From positions 1-21,459 of the IMG/VR virus record IMGVR_UViG_3300023210_000266: a DNA stretch of 21,459 nucleotides, one strand, 5' to 3'. Positions 11,390 through 21,459 of this stretch are shown piece by piece. Position 1 is the first letter of the stretch. The number at the start of each line of letters is the position of its first letter. This DNA comes from a virus. A program made the translations under genes and the position numbers. The notes beneath the pieces are model-generated. The model was not told the DNA's origin. It searched no databases and saw only the letters and a list, made by a program, of their open reading frames with translations.

Positions 11390-12333
11390 GTAAAGCATGG
11401 GGTGGTCAACACACGGCCTTTCAAGAAGCACTTAGATACATGCTTGATAGACAATCAGGTAAGGAGAAATCCATATATACACCATGGCATAAGTTTAATG
11501 ATGCTGTAACAGATGGACTAGAATGGAATACACTTACAGTTATAGGTGGTAGACCAGGTTCAGGTAAAACATTAATAAAAGATCAAATAATTAGAGAGTC
11601 TTTTGTGCTTAACCCACAAGAAGACTTTAGAGTATTAGAATTTCAATTTGAAATGGTTGGTAGAACCTCAGCAATTAGAGAGTTTTCATCACTAACTGGT
11701 CAAACATATAAGCAACTATGTAGTGCAGGTACACAACTAACACAAGAAACATTTGATAGGTGTCATGCATATGCTAAACAAAGGATTAAAAATCCTGTAG
11801 ATATTATATCTACTCCTATGACTGTCAATCAAATGAGAGAACAAGTAGATGCATATATGAATGAGCATAAGGGCAAGAAGACTATTATAACATTAGATCA
11901 TACTATACTAGTTAAGAGAGCTCCCTATCAAAATAACAGGTTAGATATGTTATTTGAATTAGGTGAATTCTTTACACAAGTTAAGCGTGAATATCCCTGT
12001 ATGTTTATTGCATTGTCACAATTGAACCGTAACATTGACAATCCGGATAGAGCTGTTGATGGTAAGTATGGTAACTATGTACTTGAGTCAGACATATTTG
12101 GATCAGATGCTATGCTTCAACATGCTGATACTCTAGTAGGTATTAACAGGCCAGCTAAACAAAAGATTAGATTATATGGACCTGATAGATATATTATTGA
12201 AGATGATAAAACATTAGTATTACATTTTCTTAAGGCAAGAAACGGGGATGCCCGTATGAGTTTCTTTAAAGCTGCCTTTGAGAGAATGGAAATTCAGGAG
12301 ATGGACACACCTCCACAACAACAAAGAAGATGA
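11386..12333 (+). CDS. dnaB: Replicative DNA helicase, DnaB-type
   Basis: A 315-residue RecA-fold ATPase matching the C-terminal domain of DnaB, the hexameric helicase that unwinds DNA at the fork. Visible are Walker A GRPGSGKT (55-62), a hydrophobic strand ending in Asp (TIITLDHT, Walker B) and the ALSQLNR segment characteristic of DnaB motif H3. The usual N-terminal primase-interacting domain is absent or very short, as in several phage versions. The C-terminus is Pro- and Gln-rich (TPPQQQRR). It is coupled by ATGA at both ends. The primase that should act with it is encoded at 14309. Confidence 0.88.
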   Translation: MSKAWGGQHTAFQEALRYMLDRQSGKEKSIYTPWHKFNDAVTDGLEWNTLTVIGGRPGSGKTLIKDQIIRESFVLNPQEDFRVLEFQFEMVGRTSAIREFSSLTGQTYKQLCSAGTQLTQETFDRCHAYAKQRIKNPVDIISTPMTVNQMREQVDAYMNEHKGKKTIITLDHTILVKRAPYQNNRLDMLFELGEFFTQVKREYPCMFIALSQLNRNIDNPDRAVDGKYGNYVLESDIFGSDAMLQHADTLVGINRPAKQKIRLYGPDRYIIEDDKTLVLHFLKARNGDARMSFFKAAFERMEIQEMDTPPQQQRR

Positions 12334-12833
12334 GTAAATTAAATACAAAAAAAAAGATGACACCTCAAGAACGTAAAGCTAAAGTTGAAGAGTTGTTACA
12401 AGAACATAAGGATTACTTTGATACTAATAATCTAAACAATCCAGCATACATACCAAAGATGGCATATAGACCATCAGGCAAGGATGAACTTCATGTATCA
12501 TTCTTTCCTAGTGAGTTAGAAAATAATCAAGATATATATACAGAGTTTGTAAGTATTGATTATGATTCAGAAGATCCAAAGAGGACCCTTTATTTATTAA
12601 AGTATAACCCTCATTGGAAAGAAGAGTATGAACTAATTACAAGTAACTCAGGCTTTCAAAGGCACATTGTACCTGCAGGAGAGCTTAAAGCAATTAAAGA
12701 TGTAACAAGTAAGAGTACATCACCCACTGTACAACCACCAATTGAATTAACAGACCCGGATGAAAGAGATATAGTGGATGTCCTAAAGGGTATTGAAAAA
12801 GCATTATTAAGTATTAATCAAAAATTAAAATAG
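12330..12833 (+). CDS. Hypothetical protein between DnaB and Sak4 (167 residues)
   Basis: A 167-residue protein: a basic, helical N-terminus (KKKMTPQERKAKVEELL), a beta-containing middle with aromatics (ELHVSFFPSELENN, TLYLLKYNPHWKEEYEL), a Ser/Thr/Pro-rich linker (TSKSTSPTVQPPIELTD) and a C-terminal amphipathic helix (VDVLKGIEKALLSINQKL). The layout suggests an adaptor tethered by a flexible linker. Coupled to the helicase by ATGA and followed one base later by the Sak4-like gene, so a replication or recombination accessory role is likely but unproven. Confidence 0.7.
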   Translation: MSKLNTKKKMTPQERKAKVEELLQEHKDYFDTNNLNNPAYIPKMAYRPSGKDELHVSFFPSELENNQDIYTEFVSIDYDSEDPKRTLYLLKYNPHWKEEYELITSNSGFQRHIVPAGELKAIKDVTSKSTSPTVQPPIELTDPDERDIVDVLKGIEKALLSINQKLK

Positions 12834-13544: not shown

Positions 13545-14228
13545 ATGTTAAGTACAAAAGACATGAGCGTAGGCTCAGGAAAAGCAAGACCTTTAATGGG
13601 TCCAGGTAACAACGTGGTAAGAATCAACTCAATCACATTTGATCAAACACCTTATGACAGAGAAGCATATAATGTTAATCTACATATGGAGTCAGAGCCA
13701 ATGGGTGGTGAGTTTGAAGGATTCTTTAGAGACAAAGATAATGAATCTAAGGGTAGATATGATGGTCAAATTGGTAGAGTAAGGGTAACACCATTTCCTT
13801 TTAAGGATACTACATTACCAAGTGGTAGAGAAATTAGCAGAGACCAAGAGATACTTAAGTCTATGATATTCTTATCTGAAACATTAGGTAAGAGATCTGA
13901 GTTAGATGCTATAGAAGCACAAACAATGGAAGACTTTATGTCTAAGTGTAACAGCTTATTCTCTAATAGTAACTTCTTTAATGTTTGTTTAGCTAGCCGT
14001 GAATGGGAAAACAAAGAAGGATATATCAATAATGATTTATATCTTCCTAAGTTATCTAAGGATGGTATACCTATGGAAGCTAAAGATGCTGAGAACTCTA
14101 GACTAATTAGCTTTAATGCTTCTACACATGTTAAAGCAGTGGTTAAGAAAGATGTACCATCTAATGGTCAAGCTAGTAACTTTGAACCAAAGATTGCAAA
14201 GGTGAATGGTTCTGATTTTGATCTTTAA
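13545..14228 (+). CDS. Probable single-stranded DNA-binding protein paired with Sak4
   Basis: A 227-residue protein with a beta-rich centre (NVVRINSITFDQTPYDREAY, GQIGRVRVTPFPF), a helical segment, and a C-terminal flexible part ending KVNGSDFDL, an acidic-hydrophobic tip like those of SSBs. It directly follows the Sak4-like ATPase, the usual place for its partner SSB. A strong leader (TTAATTAATTAAAAAAAAAG) precedes the ATG, consistent with the high levels SSBs need. A large hairpin follows the gene. Assignment is by context and layout, not by a certain OB-fold motif. Confidence 0.6.
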   Translation: MLSTKDMSVGSGKARPLMGPGNNVVRINSITFDQTPYDREAYNVNLHMESEPMGGEFEGFFRDKDNESKGRYDGQIGRVRVTPFPFKDTTLPSGREISRDQEILKSMIFLSETLGKRSELDAIEAQTMEDFMSKCNSLFSNSNFFNVCLASREWENKEGYINNDLYLPKLSKDGIPMEAKDAENSRLISFNASTHVKAVVKKDVPSNGQASNFEPKIAKVNGSDFDL

Positions 14229-14239
14229 TATATAAGAGT

Positions 14240-14293
14240 AGGGGTGGGCATAAAGGCGCTATTGCCATACAGTTAATACACTTGTCCACCCTT
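14240..14293 (+). terminator. Eleven-base-pair hairpin between SSB and primase
   Basis: Positions 14240-14250 pair with 14283-14293 (core GGGTGG/CCACCC, two G-T pairs), enclosing a second hairpin GGC-gctatt-GCC. It is followed by GCTATTATTTTG, a weak T tract, so it may be a leaky terminator. It ends 15 bases before the primase ATG, so it may instead control primase translation. Confidence 0.55.
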
Positions 14294-14308
14294 GCTATTA
14301 TTTTGATT

Positions 14309-15283
14309 ATGATAAGTACAAAGAATTTTATAAGTGAAAAAGATGAGATAAAAAGTAGCTGGGTATTTGAATACTATTTGGATCTACCTGAAAGATTAAC
14401 AGGACAAGATGTTAAGATCAAGTCTATATTTAATCCTAATGAGAAAACACCAAGTATGTTTATTTATTTAGATACAACTCGTAATGAATATAGGTACAAG
14501 GATTTCTCTACTGGTAATCAAGGTGGTAAGATAGATCTGATATTATTATTATTTAATCTAACATATTCTCAGGCATTGTTCAGAGTAGTGGAAGATTATA
14601 ATGCATATATCAGAGAGAATGGCTCACTAGATAATATAAAGTATACACCTGTTGCTAAGTACCAGGTAGACTATATAAAGAAACGTGAGTGGAATCAAAT
14701 AGATGCTGCTTACTGGTTACAATATAACATTGGTTCTAGTTTATTAAAACAGTTTAATGTTGTACCTATTGAGTATTATACAATGATTAAAGAAGAAGAA
14801 GAGAACATACAGAAGATCACTATCACCAATCCCATGATCTATGGATACTATGACAAGGAGGGAGAAATATATAAAATATATCAACCCAAACAAAAGAGAC
14901 ACAAGTTTATAAAAGTTAAACAATATCTCCAAGGCCTTGACCAGTTAAAGTATGATAAGGATTATTTAGTTATATGTAGTTCACTTAAGGATGCTATGTG
15001 TGTTGTTAGTTTTCAATTTAGATTAGAAGTAATAGCTCCTGACTCAGAGAACACTATGATTAAACCATATGTAATGCAAAATCTTTTGTCAAAGTATAAA
15101 AAAGTTGTATGTTTGCTGGATAATGATGAGGCCGGGCATAACGCAATGGAAAAGTATAAGAAATTATATAACATTGAGTCAGTCAAATTAAACTCTGAGA
15201 AAGATATATCTGACGCTGTTCAGAAATATGGACCAGAGTTAGTTAAGCCTAAGTTGTTCAAATTAATTAAAGATACAATATGA
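14309..15283 (+). CDS. DNA primase with Toprim domain, zinc-less
   Basis: A 324-residue primase, which makes RNA primers for the fork. The ATG at 14309 is chosen; a TTG-started extension to 14282 would run through the 14240-14293 hairpin. The N-terminal part follows the CHC2 primase layout (FNPNEKTPSMFIYLD, then YKDFSTGNQGGKIDLI) but lacks the zinc-binding Cys/His residues. A Toprim domain follows, with CSSLKDAM (about 222-229) and LLDNDEAG (about 269-276, the DxD-like metal site). The usual Toprim glutamate position (EGxxD) reads SSLKD, a change I associate with several phage primases. Its stop overlaps the RusA start by ATGA. A GATCACTATCA copy lies inside. Confidence 0.82.
   Translation: MISTKNFISEKDEIKSSWVFEYYLDLPERLTGQDVKIKSIFNPNEKTPSMFIYLDTTRNEYRYKDFSTGNQGGKIDLILLLFNLTYSQALFRVVEDYNAYIRENGSLDNIKYTPVAKYQVDYIKKREWNQIDAAYWLQYNIGSSLLKQFNVVPIEYYTMIKEEEENIQKITITNPMIYGYYDKEGEIYKIYQPKQKRHKFIKVKQYLQGLDQLKYDKDYLVICSSLKDAMCVVSFQFRLEVIAPDSENTMIKPYVMQNLLSKYKKVVCLLDNDEAGHNAMEKYKKLYNIESVKLNSEKDISDAVQKYGPELVKPKLFKLIKDTI
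14815..14825 (+). repeat. GATCACTATCA motif, copy 4, within the primase gene
   Basis: The 11 bases match the intergenic copies exactly. In frame they encode part of K-I-T-I-T using ATC codons, which are uncommon here compared with ATA and ATT. The flanks do not extend the stem beyond GAT/ATC, so this may be chance coding sequence. Confidence 0.4.
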
Positions 15284-15669
15284 AATGGTTCATACCAGGT
15301 AACGTACCAAGTTCTAAAAATAGTAGACGGTGGACAGGAAAGTTCTTTATAGCAAGTAAAACTGTTATGAAGTACAGAAAAGAAACTGAAAAATTATTTA
15401 AAGAAAAGTCTATTGAGTTTGTAAGAGAATTCAGTAAGTATGAGTTACCTGTGTATGTACATTTTACCTTTATAAGAGGAACAAGGCATAAGTTTGATTA
15501 CTTAAACCCTGCTCAGACTGTACAGGATGATATGACTAAGCACGGTTGGATAGTAGATGATAACTGTGAGTACATTATACCATGCTTTGACAAGTATTCT
15601 TATGATAAAGAAAATCCGGGAGTAATAATAGAATTAAAAGATGACAGAAATAAAAAAAGAAATACTTGA
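15280..15669 (+). CDS. rusA: RusA-like Holliday junction resolvase
   Basis: A 129-residue nuclease of the RusA family, which cuts four-way DNA junctions as a dimer. The start PGNVPSSKNSRRW matches the family's N-terminal strand and loop. Conserved acidic residues appear in the expected order: Asp near 73 (RHKFDYLNPAQ), Asp-Asp at 83-84 followed by a helix ending in Gly, and Asp-Asp at 93-94 (GWIVDDNCEYI). Length is close to RusA (about 120). Phages use it to resolve replication and recombination intermediates before packaging. Coupled by ATGA to the primase; the next gene overlaps its end by 29 bases. Confidence 0.82.
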   Translation: MKWFIPGNVPSSKNSRRWTGKFFIASKTVMKYRKETEKLFKEKSIEFVREFSKYELPVYVHFTFIRGTRHKFDYLNPAQTVQDDMTKHGWIVDDNCEYIIPCFDKYSYDKENPGVIIELKDDRNKKRNT

Positions 15670-16048
15670 TTACAAAACTTTCAAAAATATATTAGCCATG
15701 TTAAAGTCCTCATCCAGTGAGGATTTTTTTTTGGCATTAAAAATATGGGGTGGTTATAAAATTAATATAACACTTAATACTATAGTAGCTAGAAGAATGG
15801 GTAAAAGTGAATATGAAGGTACGAGAGAGATGCATAAAAGAATGCTAGAGTTTTCTAGAGTCTATAATACATTTAATCTTGATACAACCTTTCATATATT
15901 AATCAATCAAATGGTTGAAGAAGTTGGAGATGATAAACTCTCTACTAAACTGATCAGGAAAGAAGTATTAGATACAATTAACACATTAGTAGACTACCAT
16001 GGTCTAATAAAAATAGTAAAATTAGAAGAAAAAAATATAAAAATATGA
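15641..16048 (+). CDS. Hypothetical protein with terminator-like hairpin in its 5' end (135 residues)
   Basis: A 135-residue, largely helical protein; the middle (TIVARRMGKSEYEGTREMHK) resembles a helix-turn-helix in spacing, but not convincingly. Its start overlaps RusA by 29 bases and its TGA overlaps the next start (ATGA at 16045). Codons 23-31 form a perfect hairpin followed by nine T. In frame they read SSSSEDFF, so the structure is compatible with coding. Alternatively the first part is a leader and translation starts later. Function unknown. Confidence 0.65.
   Translation: MTEIKKEILDYKTFKNILAMLKSSSSEDFFLALKIWGGYKINITLNTIVARRMGKSEYEGTREMHKRMLEFSRVYNTFNLDTTFHILINQMVEEVGDDKLSTKLIRKEVLDTINTLVDYHGLIKIVKLEEKNIKI
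15707..15732 (+). terminator. Intragenic rho-independent terminator (attenuator)
   Basis: TCCTCA (15707-15712) and TGAGGA (15718-15723) pair perfectly across TCCAG, directly followed by nine T (15724-15732), a textbook terminator. It lies 38 bases after the RusA stop and inside the next gene, just upstream of the VWA-MoxR cassette. It may lower expression of the downstream genes unless translation or antitermination prevents it. Confidence 0.7.
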
Positions 16049-17211
16049 CACACATAGCAGACATTGTTGCAAGAGCAGCTAAAACGTTAATGTTCTCAGA
16101 GCCTTTCTATGGCCTGTTCTTAGTAGGACTTAACAAGAAATATAGAAAAGACTTGCCTACGGCAGGTGTAAGTAAAAATGGTATAGGTATTCAGTTAGCT
16201 ATTAACCCAGAGTTCTTTGAGGGATTACCAGAAAAACACAGGATTGGTTTACTTAAGCATGAGTTATTACATGTATCAATGGGACATTTAATTCTGAGAG
16301 ATAGGTTTGAAGATCATAAGCTATTTAATATAGCTGCAGATTTAGAGATCAATCAGTATATAGATGAAGAATATCTTCCTGAAGGTGGTATAACTATGGA
16401 GATGTTCAAAGATCTTGATCTTGATAGGAGAGCAGGTACTACATATTATTATGAAAAACTTCAACAAGCATGTGAAGATGGTAACTGTCCTAACTTAGAG
16501 AATATACTAAAGCAAATGGATGGTAACAGTCAATATGATCACCCAACATGGGATGAGTTTGAAGATCTATCTGAAGCAGATAAGAAGTTAATAGAGAAGC
16601 AAATAGAACATCAACTTAAAGAAACTGCTGATGCTACGGAGAAAAGACAAGGTCATGTACCTGGTGAACTAGCAGAGATTATTGATAGACTTAGAACAAT
16701 TGAGCCACCATCATTTCCATGGAAACAATATCTTAGAAGATTTGTAGGGAATTCATCTATTAGTTATACTAAGAAGCTCAGACGTAAGTATAATAAAAGA
16801 TATGCTGCTAACCCTGGTCTTAAGATTAAGTTTAAAAATCATATATGTGTTGGTGTTGACACAAGCGGATCTGTATCTAATGATGAGCTCAAAGAATTTA
16901 TGAATGAGTTATGTCATATGCATAAAACAGGACACCAGATTACAGTAGTTCAATGTGATACACAAATAGTATCAATAGAAAAATTTAACCCAAAGAAAGA
17001 TTGGGATATAAAAGGTAGAGGTGGAACAAGTTTCCAACCAGTTGTAGATCATTACAATGAGAAGAAAGAGTATACAGCTCTTATATATTTAACAGATGGA
17101 GAAGCATACCCTCCAGAAGACTGTCCAAAGAATGCATTATGGGTACATAGTAGTAGTAACTACTGTCAAATCAATGAAGACTTACCGGGACAAAAAATTC
17201 AACTTAACTAA
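16045..17211 (+). CDS. Metallopeptidase-like plus VWA domain protein (DUF2201-like)
   Basis: A 388-residue two-domain protein. Residues about 1-110 form a metallopeptidase-like domain with HELLHVSMGH (72-81), that is HExxH with a further His. After a charged middle, a von Willebrand A domain begins near residue 268, with MIDAS motif DTSGS (272-276), GGTSF near 328 and LTDGE near 350, so metal binding looks intact. This is the architecture of DUF2201-like VWA proteins, usually encoded next to a MoxR-type AAA+ ATPase that acts on them as partner chaperone. Here the MoxR gene is 20 bases downstream. Coupled by ATGA to the gene before. Peptidase activity is unproven; the target may be a replication complex or a host protein. 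Confidence 0.82.
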   Translation: MTHIADIVARAAKTLMFSEPFYGLFLVGLNKKYRKDLPTAGVSKNGIGIQLAINPEFFEGLPEKHRIGLLKHELLHVSMGHLILRDRFEDHKLFNIAADLEINQYIDEEYLPEGGITMEMFKDLDLDRRAGTTYYYEKLQQACEDGNCPNLENILKQMDGNSQYDHPTWDEFEDLSEADKKLIEKQIEHQLKETADATEKRQGHVPGELAEIIDRLRTIEPPSFPWKQYLRRFVGNSSISYTKKLRRKYNKRYAANPGLKIKFKNHICVGVDTSGSVSNDELKEFMNELCHMHKTGHQITVVQCDTQIVSIEKFNPKKDWDIKGRGGTSFQPVVDHYNEKKEYTALIYLTDGEAYPPEDCPKNALWVHSSSNYCQINEDLPGQKIQLN

Positions 17212-17231
17212 TTAAAAAAAACAAAAAGAAA

Positions 17232-18497
17232 ATGGCAGAAGTAAATTTAAACATTGAAGAACTAGATGGATTTATTGATCACATCATTAGTAACAACAGA
17301 GTATTACAAGAGCAAGGTAAAAAACCTGTAGCTGTAGAAGTAGTAGGTGAATCAGGTATTGGTAAGACTACTAGTATTATGGACATGGCTAAGAAACATG
17401 AGTTGGATTTTGTTAAGTTAAACTTAGCACAAATAGAAGAGTTAGGTGATCTAGTAGGATTTCCTGTAAGACAATTTCAAATGTATAAAGAAAAGACAGT
17501 TAAGATGTCTGAAAAAGATATATTAAACTATAACTCAAGAGCAGCTGCATCAGCAGACTTAGCTAAGATGCCACAAACAGTGACTAAAAAAGTTGGTCAA
17601 TGGGTTGATGAGTTAGCAGTATCTGATTATCTAAAGAATGGATTTAAGATGACAGGTAAGAATAGAATGTCTTACTGTGCACCTGAGTGGATTGCTGATA
17701 AAAAGAATGGTGGTATACTATTATTAGATGACTGGAACCGTGCTGATGTTAGATTTATACAAGCATGTATGGAATTAGTTGACCGTCAAACATATATCTC
17801 ATGGACATTACCAAAAGACTGGCACATTATCTTAACAGCTAACCCGGATAATGGAGACTACATGGTAAACTCTGTAGATTCTGCACAAAAGACTCGTTAC
17901 ATTACAGCTAACCTTAAGTTTGATATTAATGTATGGGCTAAGTGGGCAGAGTCAGCAGGTATAGATTCAAGATGTATTAACTTCCTGTTGATGCACCCTG
18001 AACTTGTAAGTCAAGAGACTAATGCAAGATCTATATCAACATTCTTTAATGCTATATCTAGTATAGAAAAGTTTGAAGAGAGTCTATCTCTTATTCAAAT
18101 GATTGGTGAAGGTAGTGTTGGTGAAGAGTTTTCATCTATGTTTACTATGTTCATTAACAACAAATTAGATAAGCTGGTTACTCCTATGGATCTATTATGT
18201 CATACAGATGAGAAATATATCTTAGGTGAATTAAGAAGTTGTATTGGTAAAGATGATTCATATCGTGCAGATATAGCATCAGCTTTAGCAACAAGACTTG
18301 CTAACTATTCTGTTGTATACTCTAAGGAGAATACAGTAGGTCAGAAGATAACTGATAGATTGATTGCACTATGCACTAAAGATTACTTTACTGATGATCT
18401 TAAGTACTTAGTTGTAAGAACTATCTTTAATGGTAATAAGCAGAAGTTTAACAAGATGATGATGAACCCTGCAATAATTAAAATGACTGTAAAGTAA
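17232..18497 (+). CDS. MoxR-type AAA+ ATPase
   Basis: A 421-residue AAA+ ATPase. Walker A GESGIGKT (39-46) and Walker B with sensor context (GGILLLDDWNRADVRFIQA, about 160-178) are present. A sensor-1-like HIILTANP strand near 197-204 and an Arg-containing ARSISTF segment near 264 follow, as in the MoxR/RavA branch. These ATPases form rings and remodel complexes with VWA partners (as RavA with ViaA). It has a strong A-rich leader (TAATTAAAAAAAACAAAAAG), suggesting higher expression than its neighbours. Its stop overlaps the next start (TAATG at 18495-18499). Confidence 0.85.
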   Translation: MAEVNLNIEELDGFIDHIISNNRVLQEQGKKPVAVEVVGESGIGKTTSIMDMAKKHELDFVKLNLAQIEELGDLVGFPVRQFQMYKEKTVKMSEKDILNYNSRAAASADLAKMPQTVTKKVGQWVDELAVSDYLKNGFKMTGKNRMSYCAPEWIADKKNGGILLLDDWNRADVRFIQACMELVDRQTYISWTLPKDWHIILTANPDNGDYMVNSVDSAQKTRYITANLKFDINVWAKWAESAGIDSRCINFLLMHPELVSQETNARSISTFFNAISSIEKFEESLSLIQMIGEGSVGEEFSSMFTMFINNKLDKLVTPMDLLCHTDEKYILGELRSCIGKDDSYRADIASALATRLANYSVVYSKENTVGQKITDRLIALCTKDYFTDDLKYLVVRTIFNGNKQKFNKMMMNPAIIKMTVK

Positions 18498-19537
18498 TGG
18501 CAAAGAAAACAGTATTTCAAACAATTGATAATGCTGATGTTATTAATCTAGGGATAGAAGATGGCGTGTACTATGGAGTGTGCGCCTCTTCTTCTTTAGA
18601 TGAAATAGCAACAGTGTTAGTAACAGAAGATATAGAGAAGTATCAAGAAGTAGAAGAACTATTAGTAAATGAAACTACTAGTGATTTAACTACTGTTAAA
18701 AAAGGTTTTGTTCTACCGGGTTGCAGTGTATCTGCTGATAGGTTGAAAGAAGCAGCTAAAGAACATAGTATAACTATTACTAATGATTATGAGTCAGCTG
18801 ATTTTATACTCACTGATGGGAGGATTACAGCAGACTGTAGAAATGAAAAGTATCCAACATCTAAACTATTAGTTGAATGGACAAACGGTTATGTTATTAA
18901 TGATCTTAAAAACTCAGTTCTAGATTATGTTGAAGCTACAGGTAACACTGTATTATGGGATGACAGATGCAATCAGTATTGGAACTTATCTAATTTTGAT
19001 TATGAGTCAGCGCCATATACTTGTTACATATTAACAGGCCTAGCTATTAACTTAGCTACTAAGATTAAGGGTGGTGAGATGAATGTTATAGAAGTTGATA
19101 CTCTTTTAAGTTCATCTGCTAATATTCAACCTTTAACTAAGCAATTAGTTAATGATATAACAGGTATGTTAAACTGTGGTGATGACCGGGAAATGGTAGG
19201 AGCATTATTACCTACTATAGATTATAGAAAGACACCTGCACTAATGTGGCAGCTAGCTTGTAAGTTAAGAGGTAAGGATTATTATTGGCCACGTAACAAA
19301 GACCTAAAGTATTGGTGGACTGTTGCTAATATAGATCAGTTAGGTTACATGTGTGCTGAGGAAGCTGTTATTCATTATGATAAACTTGGTAAACTTGACT
19401 CAGAGAATTTTAAAATGTTAGAACCTATATGTAGAGAAGAAATTAGTATATCTAATAGATCTTTATATGTATTCAGAGTAGCAGTAAACCCTAAATGGAG
19501 AAAGTATTTAAATAATAAAACTAAAACAAATGAGTAG
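18497..19537 (+). CDS. VWA-MoxR-associated protein A, unknown family (346 residues)
   Basis: A soluble protein of unrecognised family and the diverged sister of the next gene. Shared blocks: GFVLPGCSVSADRLKEAA (70-87) then YESADFILTD (98-107); a DRCNQYWNLSNF block (near 156-167); and a helical block with LNCGDDREMVGALLPTIDY then TPALMWQLACKL. The first block (strand, helix, strand, then xSADxx) resembles a BRCT-like fold in layout, which is inference. No catalytic motif is seen. Coupled by TAATG to the MoxR gene and overlapping the next start by 8 bases, so the four genes are probably made together. Likely a structural subunit, substrate adaptor or sensor for the MoxR-VWA pair. Confidence 0.75.
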   Translation: MAKKTVFQTIDNADVINLGIEDGVYYGVCASSSLDEIATVLVTEDIEKYQEVEELLVNETTSDLTTVKKGFVLPGCSVSADRLKEAAKEHSITITNDYESADFILTDGRITADCRNEKYPTSKLLVEWTNGYVINDLKNSVLDYVEATGNTVLWDDRCNQYWNLSNFDYESAPYTCYILTGLAINLATKIKGGEMNVIEVDTLLSSSANIQPLTKQLVNDITGMLNCGDDREMVGALLPTIDYRKTPALMWQLACKLRGKDYYWPRNKDLKYWWTVANIDQLGYMCAEEAVIHYDKLGKLDSENFKMLEPICREEISISNRSLYVFRVAVNPKWRKYLNNKTKTNE

Positions 19538-20750
19538 ACAGAAAATATATGACTTAAATTTTAACGTATCAAGATATTATGATACACAAAATAAACATTC
19601 TAGACTTCAGAAAGAAGATATATCTTTCAGTTCTAGAGGTGAATTTATAGGTGAACATCATTGGAATGGTGGTAAAGAAGAATCAGAAGTACTTCTTGAG
19701 GATCTGACAAAGAGAAATCTTGATTGGTCAAAAATTAAAACAATGTATAGGTATCCTAATTTATCTTTATCTAGAGATAAAGTTTCTTTGATAAAAGATA
19801 AGTATGGTGCCAGGGTTATAAGAGATAAAGATTCAGCTGACATATGTATTATATCTAATAAGACTATTGAAAAGCTAATCCATTCTGATTTATATTACGG
19901 TGGTGTTTGGACAGTTAAAACATTTAATGAAAAGAAGATGCCTGAATTAGCAAATGTAATGACTGCTGAAGCTTATACTTCGTTAGCTGATATATTATCT
20001 CATCTTCCAGATGGAGCAATGATATTTGGTGGAGATAGATATAACTCTTGGAATAACAGTGATGAGTTTATGGAATGTCCTTTAACATATTTTACAGAAA
20101 ATACTAATGGTTATACATGGAGGTCAGATACTAATCATAGCGGTGCAATGTATATTCCTACTAAACATGTAGCAACATGGGACAGCTTTCTGGATCCAAG
20201 TAAAATATTTGTATCAGATATATATGTTAATGAAGTTTGTTCTGAAGATTCTATTGTGCTTGATTGGAACCAGTATGAAGATCTAAAAAAGATGTTAGGT
20301 GCTACTGAAGATGATAAGTCTGTTGCAATGACCATCATGGCTAACTGTAAGATTGAAGAGTCTAAGACGGCCTTGGGATTACTGTTCTTTCATTATGGTG
20401 AGTTAATGAAAGGAGCTTCCACTTGGAATCAGGTAGCATTTAAAACATTACGTAAACAATTTGATCATTATATGATTGGTGGTTGGAATGCTGCTCACAC
20501 AAGTACATTTAGCAGTCTAATAAAAAAGTTAGCTGAAGATAATGCATTAACTGAAGAAGCAATGAAACACATATGTGAATTAGTATTTGATAGAGTTTTA
20601 AACTCTGGTTGTGGATTTACCAAAGATGAGTGCGCATTTGAAATGAAACTTGAAGATGTTAGATTAACTAAACATTATAAAGATAAGTTAGTAAGAGAAG
20701 ATAAAACTCTTTCTGAGTTAGTAACCATGGGAGATGACCTTCCATTTTAA
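19530..20750 (+). CDS. VWA-MoxR-associated protein B with SSB-like C-terminal tip (406 residues)
   Basis: A diverged copy of the preceding protein. Matching blocks are YRYPNLSLSRDKVSLIKD (73-90) then KDSADICIIS (100-109), a DRYNSWNNSDEF block, and LGATEDDKSVAMTIMANCK followed by TALGLLFFHYGELM. It is about 60 residues longer, mainly in the N-terminal part and at the C-terminus. The last residues, TMGDDLPF, closely resemble the SSB C-terminal tip (DDxPF), the docking site for many replication and repair proteins. This suggests it recruits, or competes for, SSB-binding enzymes; that is inference. The next gene, a nuclease, starts 9 bases downstream. Confidence 0.75.
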   Translation: MSRQKIYDLNFNVSRYYDTQNKHSRLQKEDISFSSRGEFIGEHHWNGGKEESEVLLEDLTKRNLDWSKIKTMYRYPNLSLSRDKVSLIKDKYGARVIRDKDSADICIISNKTIEKLIHSDLYYGGVWTVKTFNEKKMPELANVMTAEAYTSLADILSHLPDGAMIFGGDRYNSWNNSDEFMECPLTYFTENTNGYTWRSDTNHSGAMYIPTKHVATWDSFLDPSKIFVSDIYVNEVCSEDSIVLDWNQYEDLKKMLGATEDDKSVAMTIMANCKIEESKTALGLLFFHYGELMKGASTWNQVAFKTLRKQFDHYMIGGWNAAHTSTFSSLIKKLAEDNALTEEAMKHICELVFDRVLNSGCGFTKDECAFEMKLEDVRLTKHYKDKLVREDKTLSELVTMGDDLPF

Positions 20751-20759
20751 ATTTAAATT

Positions 20760-21459
20760 ATGAAATTAGATACAAATAAAGAAAAAGTTTTCCTGGAGGC
20801 ATGTGCCTCTGGGAACTTTAAGTTTAGTTACTCATCACTGAACAAATTAATTTTCTCTCCAAAGTTATTCTATAAGGATTATATACTTAAGGATAGAGAA
20901 GAGAGAACAGATAAGCATTTGATCCAAGGTAAGCTTATACATTTATTATTGTTACAACCAGAGGAGTTTGATAATAACTTTGTGTTGATGCCATCAAAGC
21001 TACCGTCTGATACATTGCGTAAGGTCTTAAAAAATATTACACTCTACACGGATGCTAAGATTTTGTCTAAGGTTGATGACAAAATAATTTTAGATTCTTT
21101 AAAAGAGGTAGGACTATACCAATCATTAAAGGATGAAAATAAACGTGTAGCTAAAGTACGTACTATTGAGTGTGAAGATTACTATACGTTTTCACAGACA
21201 ACTGGTAAGGATATTATAGATGTAGATACTCTTGAGAAATGTAAGAGTTCAGTAGAGTTAATTAAAGATAATAAATCTGTAATGGATTTACTTGAAGACA
21301 ATACTACTGACTTTGAAATGGACGGAATAGAAATATTTAATGAGAAATTTCTTGAATGTTCTCTTGATCAATATACATTTGGGCTACATGGTTATGTTGA
21401 TAGATATGTTATAGATCATGACAAAAAGCTGATCACTATCATAGACATCAAAACTACGG
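20760..21459 (+). CDS. PD-(D/E)XK nuclease (partial, C-terminus beyond window)
   Basis: The first 233 codons of an exonuclease-like protein. The N-terminal part (FSYSSLNKLIFSPKLFYKDY, then GKLIHLLLLQPEEF near 56-69) matches the S-x-S-x-L and G-x-x-x-H segments that open many phage RecE/RecB/Cas4-like nucleases. Further on, GYVDRYV with Asp near 214 and ITIIDIKT with Asp 229 and Lys 231 form the PD-(D/E)XK metal-binding core. Role expected: 5'-3' resection of DNA ends for the Sak4-type recombination system. Codons 9-20 form a very stable hairpin that may limit translation. The GATCACTATCA motif lies at the catalytic core codons. The end of the protein is not visible. Confidence 0.78.
   Translation, partial: MKLDTNKEKVFLEACASGNFKFSYSSLNKLIFSPKLFYKDYILKDREERTDKHLIQGKLIHLLLLQPEEFDNNFVLMPSKLPSDTLRKVLKNITLYTDAKILSKVDDKIILDSLKEVGLYQSLKDENKRVAKVRTIECEDYYTFSQTTGKDIIDVDTLEKCKSSVELIKDNKSVMDLLEDNTTDFEMDGIEIFNEKFLECSLDQYTFGLHGYVDRYVIDHDKKLITIIDIKTT
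20784..20820 (+). other. Strong hairpin in the first codons of the nuclease gene
   Basis: AAAG and, after a two-base bulge, TTCCTGGAGGC pair with GCCTCTGGGAA and CTTT across an ATGT loop, giving about 15 base pairs with two G-T pairs. No T tract follows, so a terminator is unlikely. It begins 24 bases after the start codon. Confidence 0.6.
21431..21441 (+). repeat. GATCACTATCA motif, copy 5, within the nuclease gene
   Basis: Exact match to the intergenic copies; with the preceding T it forms TGAT-CACT-ATCA. In frame it encodes L-I-T-I-I directly ahead of the catalytic Asp, so coding constraint could explain it. The codon phase is the same as in copy 4. Confidence 0.4.

Follow-up and report, generated by a model that had tools for sequence, protein, structure and literature searches.

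Pairs of a MoxR-like AAA+ ATPase and a von Willebrand factor A (VWA) protein are already known in phages (PMC7650795, PMC7824862). They are present in hundreds of them, including N4-like, jumbo and other phages. The N4 pair, gp24/gp25, is counted in the core gene set of N4-like phages, with one of three methods placing gp25 there (PMC7650795), and its genes are expressed as middle transcripts (PMC4193335). For the jumbo-phage pair, a role as a virion-assembly chaperone has been proposed by analogy with Acidianus two-tailed virus (PMC7824862). In the literature searched we found no tailed-phage MoxR-VWA pair whose function or client had been tested, and no paper linking crAss-like phages with MoxR or von Willebrand domains. 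Here we describe a pair of this kind in a window of 21,459 bases, which is the complete IMG/VR virus record IMGVR_UViG_3300023210_000266, a fragment without capsid genes. The pair lies in a predicted five-gene cassette together with three paralogous accessory proteins, g135, P6 and P7. What is new is this obligatory trio, its rate of change, its pattern of exchange, and its crAss-like setting.

The cassette and its accessory proteins

A preliminary description of the window had placed four genes at 16045-20750, encoding a HExxH/VWA protein, a MoxR AAA+ ATPase and two diverged copies of an unrecognised protein, between RusA and a PD-(D/E)XK nuclease, and had raised the question of whether the four are neighbours in related phages and whether the paralogs belong to a described family. 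The four open reading frames (ORFs) are present on the + strand, with products of 388 aa (16045-17211), 421 aa (17232-18497), 346 aa (18497-19537, P6) and 406 aa (19530-20750, P7), and the flanking genes are those named, with one small gene separating RusA from VWA. As detailed below, the assignments of all four products held up, the four genes are neighbours in related phages, and the paralogs have no described family in the libraries searched. All cassette features given here are on the + strand.

P6 and P7 could not be recognised as paralogs by BLASTP (E = 0.43), and profile comparison was used instead. A profile-profile comparison with hhalign gave a probability of 95.6 and an E-value of 1.1e-8 over 275 columns, the P6 profile directly matches some P7 members, and the AlphaFold2 models of P6 and P7 (mean predicted local distance difference test scores, pLDDT, of 89.4 and 83.8) match the same four uncharacterised phage proteins. 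Judged by these comparisons, P6 and P7 are true remote paralogs, homologous along most of their length. Searches of Pfam, PHROGs, NCBIfam, PADLOC and PDB sequences returned nothing above noise for either protein, and tblastn with both found no relatives in 50,697 phage records.

Each of the two is modelled as an adaptor-like protein with a BRCT-like segment and a helical domain. The BRCT-like segment covers residues 58-110 of P6 (18668-18826), as placed by a joint P6/P7 profile, and residues 62-116 of P7 (19713-19877), as placed by a fold match to a PARP BRCT domain; the helical domain, delimited from AlphaFold2 secondary structure, covers residues 195-340 of P6 (19079-19516) and 226-390 of P7 (20205-20699). 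The top PDB match of the joint profile is the PARP-1 BRCT domain (E = 0.15). P7 matches the PARP BRCT fold with a probability of 0.87 and a root-mean-square deviation of 2.0 over 51 columns, but at E = 0.37; P6 matches a phage BRCT protein by fold with a probability of 0.54, and one family member has a Pfam BRCT match at E = 0.17. These matches are suggestive only, and we use "BRCT-like" for the N-terminal domain as a working description.

The third paralog is the product of the small gene at 15641-16048. This protein, g135, has 135 aa and consists of the helical domain alone. A profile of the P7 helical domain matches g135 at E = 1.2e-5 within the candidate set, and of 297 ORFs located between RusA and VWA it matches 62 at E<1e-3. 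The reverse search from the g135 family recovers P7 at 7.2e-6, and hhalign of that family (108 sequences) against the P7 helical domain gives a probability of 95.3 and an E-value of 2.4e-8. Because this small gene is a third paralog, the cassette is taken to have five genes, in the order g135-VWA-MoxR-P6-P7, and to start about 400 b before the unit noted earlier. Together, g135, P6 and P7 form a three-member family without an entry in the libraries searched.

The VWA gene (16045-17211) encodes a protein in which VWA is fused to a zincin-like metallopeptidase domain (DUF2201_N plus DUF2201), with matches to PF13203 (E = 1.4e-19), PF09967 (1.1e-17) and phrog_1314 (7.9e-67). Both of its motifs are intact. 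The putative zinc-binding motif is HELLHVSMGH (residues 72-81, 16258-16287) and the VWA metal ion-dependent adhesion site (MIDAS) motif is DTSGS (residues 272-276, 16858-16872); H72, E73, H76 and H81 in the first, D272, S274 and S276 in the second, and the further MIDAS residues T328 (17026-17028) and D351 (17095-17097) are at least 95% conserved in 78 rows. The protein may have peptidase activity. In PHROGs, phrog_1314 is named "HNH endonuclease", a name that many RefSeq phage records have as well; this label looks wrong, since Pfam finds no HNH domain in the VWA protein and gives DUF2201_N and DUF2201.

The next gene (17232-18497) encodes a divergent MoxR-like AAA+ ATPase, recognised through phrog_1297 ("ATPase", E = 4.6e-32), through tblastn matches to annotated MoxR-like ATPases of S-TIM5 and other phages, and through its motifs. 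These are Walker A, GESGIGKT (residues 39-46, 17346-17369), and Walker B with the following MoxR-type motif, ILLLDDWNRAD (residues 162-172, 17715-17747), both at least 95% conserved in 41 rows, as well as a conserved T-NP at sensor 1. None of the Pfam AAA models exceeded its own cut-off on this protein (AAA_5, E = 0.039). Chaperone or remodelling activity of the MoxR-VWA pair is at present a prediction from sequence.

The five genes are packed closely. An ATGA is common to the ends of g135 and VWA, 20 nt separate VWA from MoxR, MoxR and P6 have one base in common (TAATG), and P6 and P7 overlap by 8 nt; these overlapping or near-touching gene ends resemble those of a co-translated operon. The order is also fixed. 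Viral contigs were searched with MoxR and VWA, taking the best 80 of 524 candidate loci and the best 80 of 446, respectively, and a locus was counted as scorable when 2.6 kb or more of sequence followed MoxR. All 127 scorable loci, with 81 distinct MoxR sequences among them, have MoxR, P6 and P7 in this order; VWA is present in 126, and the remaining locus is cut before VWA. Since the order is kept in every scorable locus and across 81 distinct MoxR sequences, the four-gene arrangement is not a product of chance. The loci were fetched by their likeness to the cassette proteins, and the figure of 127/127 describes co-occurrence within a lineage, not among all phages with MoxR.

Divergence and exchange of P6 and P7

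Median identity to the window among non-redundant sequences is 80% for MoxR, 72% for VWA, 36% for P6 and 26% for P7. When 8,698 pairs were sorted into bins by divergence, the median identity of P7 was below that of all other genes compared in each bin but the identical one; in phages with 96-100% identical VWA, MoxR and upstream genes, P7 identity can drop to 37-38%. In 51 closely related pairs, each made up of two distinct loci, identity below 80% was found for P7 in 25, for P6 in 5, for the exonuclease in 5 of 48, and for the other six genes in none; the 51 pairs fall into 13 groups, with an outlier in 7, so independent events number fewer than 51. In one group of nine, the ratio of non-synonymous to synonymous substitution rates (dN/dS) was 0.23 for P6 and 0.27 for P7, about 2-5 times that of seven neighbours (0.05-0.13). 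P7 is the fastest-changing gene of the module.

One clear case was found of an exchange between phages that involved P6 and P7 together. Loci L058 and L052 have flanks of about 97-99% nucleotide identity, but across P6-P7 the value is mostly 46-64%; the breakpoints are near the start of P6 and just inside the exonuclease gene. The L058 allele is 92-100% identical at the nucleotide level to that of L180, a locus of another lineage whose flanking genes are only 62-80% identical to those of L058. It is the combination of similar L058/L052 flanks with an L058 allele matching L180 that identifies the exchange. An assembly chimera is disfavoured by the intact reading frames and by the occurrence of the closely matching allele in another metagenome. 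In the pair L002/L003, P7 alone differs (38%), the genes before it being 93-100% identical. The variable block can also extend downstream of P7: in L102/L154 and in G017/G022 the exonuclease diverges together with P7.

We propose that the cassette encodes a five-gene phage machine made of a conserved MoxR-VWA engine and the paralogous recognition subunits g135, P6 and P7, a reading to which we give a probability of roughly 0.4. The MoxR-like ATPase and the VWA partner with its metallopeptidase-like domain would form a conserved ATP-driven remodelling engine, to which g135, P6 and P7 would bring clients as dedicated recognition subunits. P6 and P7 would work as a matched pair, replaceable together with the engine unchanged; their joint replacement while the engine stayed constant makes it probable that they determine which target it acts on. 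The likely target is a protein that varies from host to host or among rival phages, for example a host factor in replication, recombination or defence. A complex of the cassette proteins is supported by the tight operon structure and fixed gene order, and the division into core and specificity modules by a constant engine alongside a variable, jointly exchangeable pair. From these features we infer a physical complex, an adaptor role for the paralogs (not that of clients) and a host or rival target. A rather unlikely reading is that the machine is an unfoldase/protease whose P6-P7 plug-in is traded between lineages, redirecting it to other host or rival proteins.

The same observations bear on a counter-defence machine, in which the adaptors would bring in host defence proteins to be unfolded or cleaved and their alleles would match different host systems. 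Such a machine would fit both the co-exchange of P6 and P7 and their fast divergence while the engine motifs remain intact. Against it, the pair is among the core genes of N4-like phages, which makes a narrow role seem less likely, and no known defence family was matched: none of the PADLOC defence models was matched over most of its length, the sole hit being a weak, partial one of the ATPase to DolB (34 residues, E = 4e-4). We regard a dedicated counter-defence function as distinctly improbable. Fast divergence of P6 and P7 is compatible with counter-defence or replication remodelling, and also with host-range or tail-assembly roles.

Several points weigh against the proposal of an engine with exchangeable recognition subunits. 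The complex is predicted from its genes, as are interaction, expression and activity; the BRCT assignment is below significance by each single method. The sole clean exchange found of the whole P6-P7 unit is the one seen when L058 is compared with L052. Unusually frequent exchange found no backing in a nearest-neighbour test, which gave 4/84 for P7, 2/84 for P6 and 7/82 for Sak4. As this test shows no excess, the general claim rests on the rate of change and on the one clean exchange. The dN/dS values are below 1, and fast change may reflect relaxed constraint instead of an arms race. Finally, in G017/G022 the divergence is not confined to P6-P7: g135, the exonuclease and the next two genes diverge as well, and tail-region genes vary as much as P7. 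Three dedicated accessory proteins, two of which were co-exchanged once with the engine constant, offer a natural handle on a phage MoxR machine: where closely related phages have different P6/P7 alleles and little else that differs, these proteins could reveal what such a machine targets.

Gene context and Crassvirales setting

Upstream of the cassette, on the + strand, are a DNA primase gene (14282-15283; phrog_12622, E = 8.2e-20; Toprim_2, 1.9e-6) and a gene for a RusA-like resolvase (15280-15669; phrog_1682, 2.5e-19). Downstream, also on the + strand, is a PD-(D/E)XK exonuclease gene (20760-21458; PF12705, 1.3e-6), truncated where the record ends. The fixed location of the cassette between primase/RusA and exonuclease, and a nearby DNA polymerase, suggest another role for the accessory proteins. 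P6, P7 and g135 could be DNA- or phosphopeptide-bound parts of a replisome or recombinosome that MoxR-VWA assembles or disassembles, their divergence reflecting weak constraint. The BRCT-like domain of P6 and P7 and the conserved basic residues R74, K84 and R98 of P7 would suit such a part. However, the replication genes next to them are much better conserved, which would be unusual for a core replisome component, and P6-P7 alone were co-exchanged. On balance a replication-complex factor appears rather doubtful.

Two further genes of the replication module, at 12330-12833 and 13545-14228, are conserved and have no Pfam or PHROG match. At the other end of the window, a minus-strand ORF of 597 aa (2-1792) runs off the end of the record. 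This ORF rules out a non-coding reading of positions 1-1900 and explains the reversed GC skew there. Its product has the same N-terminal residues as a 1789-aa protein that heads the opposite-strand structural arm of a 123-kb relative, and by this correspondence the window holds the start of that opposite arm.

The nearest long relative, G001 (123 kb), has matches to Crass_capsid (8.3e-32) and CrAss_Ring_1 (1.5e-7) and to a phrog portal and terminase; Terminase_6N failed to detect the terminase, which PHROG found. A crAss capsid is present in 20 of 23 cassette-bearing records. By these markers the long relatives of the window are assigned to Crassvirales. In G001 the cassette lies in the replication arm, a long way from the capsid genes, and the structural module runs along the opposite strand. 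This placement, the cassette's position among DNA replication and recombination genes, and the middle transcription of N4 gp24/gp25 all argue against a machine for virion assembly, in which MoxR-VWA would act as chaperone and processing peptidase, folding, remodelling or cleaving tail or head proteins, with P6 and P7 adapting it to variable tail or receptor-binding proteins. In its favour are the role proposed for the jumbo-phage metallopeptidase-VWA and MoxR pair (PMC7824862), the variability of tail-region genes in G017/G022, and the presence of roseophage virion proteins near the gp24/gp25 homologs, in a mid-phase module (PMC4193335). We consider virion assembly an unlikely role.

Searches of 13 named Crassvirales records and of Flavobacterium phage Fpv20 gave no VWA, MoxR or P7 match; the VWA search does find its target in N4-like and other phages, and the P7 search has its control only within the lineage. 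The cassette is carried by a large group of crAss-like phages that lies outside the named records searched. A search of genome contigs for hosts returned three that carry the cassette, L193 (WLWP01000004.1), L194 and L195 (CAKZOX01), in metagenome-assembled genomes of Pseudomonadales and Campylobacteraceae. Given a crAss capsid match on the same contig as L193, these were set aside as host evidence; all three probably come from phages and ended up in bacterial bins. We also set aside MoxR matches in human-fecal "Bacteriophage sp." records (L203, L204 and L205), which, judged by eye from their translations, are bacterial-looking chromosome fragments with their own MoxR-VWA, not crAss-like.

Comparison with known systems

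The preliminary description had read the locus as a MoxR-VWA pair inside a phage replication and recombination module with two extra, specific components, and had related it to RavA-ViaA and to conflict-type ternary systems. The first part stands; membership of either known system does not. RavA-ViaA of E. coli resembles the cassette in joining a MoxR AAA+ ATPase to a VWA partner. It differs in that the cassette VWA carries a HExxH domain and that the cassette is phage-borne and has extra subunits; no Pfam family for a RavA- or ViaA-specific domain was found in the cassette at E<=1. The MoxR-vWA-VMAP ternary conflict systems also combine MoxR and VWA with further components, and they include peptidase domains fused to VWA (PMC7159879). 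The cassette, in contrast, is located in a phage replication module, and searches of P6, P7 and g135 for a VMAP component or effector domain gave nothing above noise in Pfam, NCBIfam or PADLOC.

Midasin, a eukaryotic remodelling factor, shares the logic of an AAA ring plus MIDAS, and its AAA modules are the nearest PDB relatives of the cassette ATPase profile (E = 8e-8, residues 33-89). Midasin, however, is a single giant polypeptide, and the match covers only the short Walker A region. Among the accessory proteins, the resemblance with most support for the N-terminal domain of P6 and P7, by sequence profile and by fold, is to BRCT domains of PARP-1 and of phage BRCT proteins, at E-values of 0.15-0.8 and probabilities of 0.54-0.87, below significance. 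By overall fold, P6 and P7 match A0A8S5QMV2 (from crAss-like phage ctYsL76), A0A6J5LXR8, A0A8S5TKB2 and A0A8S5TL70, with E-values of 7e-10 to 4e-5 and a probability of 1.00, at about 9-14% sequence identity and TM-scores of 0.33-0.48. A0A8S5TKB2 and A0A8S5TL70 both come from Podoviridae ctz6O13, so that two occur in one phage, as do P6 and P7.

The MoxR-VWA pairs of other phages, in which a homologous VWA-metallopeptidase gene is adjacent or close to one for a MoxR ATPase, provide the closest comparison. VWA homologs were found by tblastn in 555 of 50,697 phage records, the listed matches being only about 26-31% identical to the cassette VWA. P6 and P7 have no counterpart near MoxR-VWA in six loci, those of Moorella, Bacillus, Alteromonas, Escherichia (Pollock), S-TIM5 and Thermus phages, and the cassette order of VWA then MoxR is reversed in several reference phage loci. 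The engine itself has the features of the N4 type, a DUF2201 metallopeptidase-VWA protein with both motifs intact and MoxR adjacent to it in the scorable loci. With its membership of phrog_1297 and phrog_1314, the cassette pair belongs to the phage MoxR plus metallopeptidase-VWA kind represented by N4 gp24/gp25 and by jumbo-phage group 2.2.

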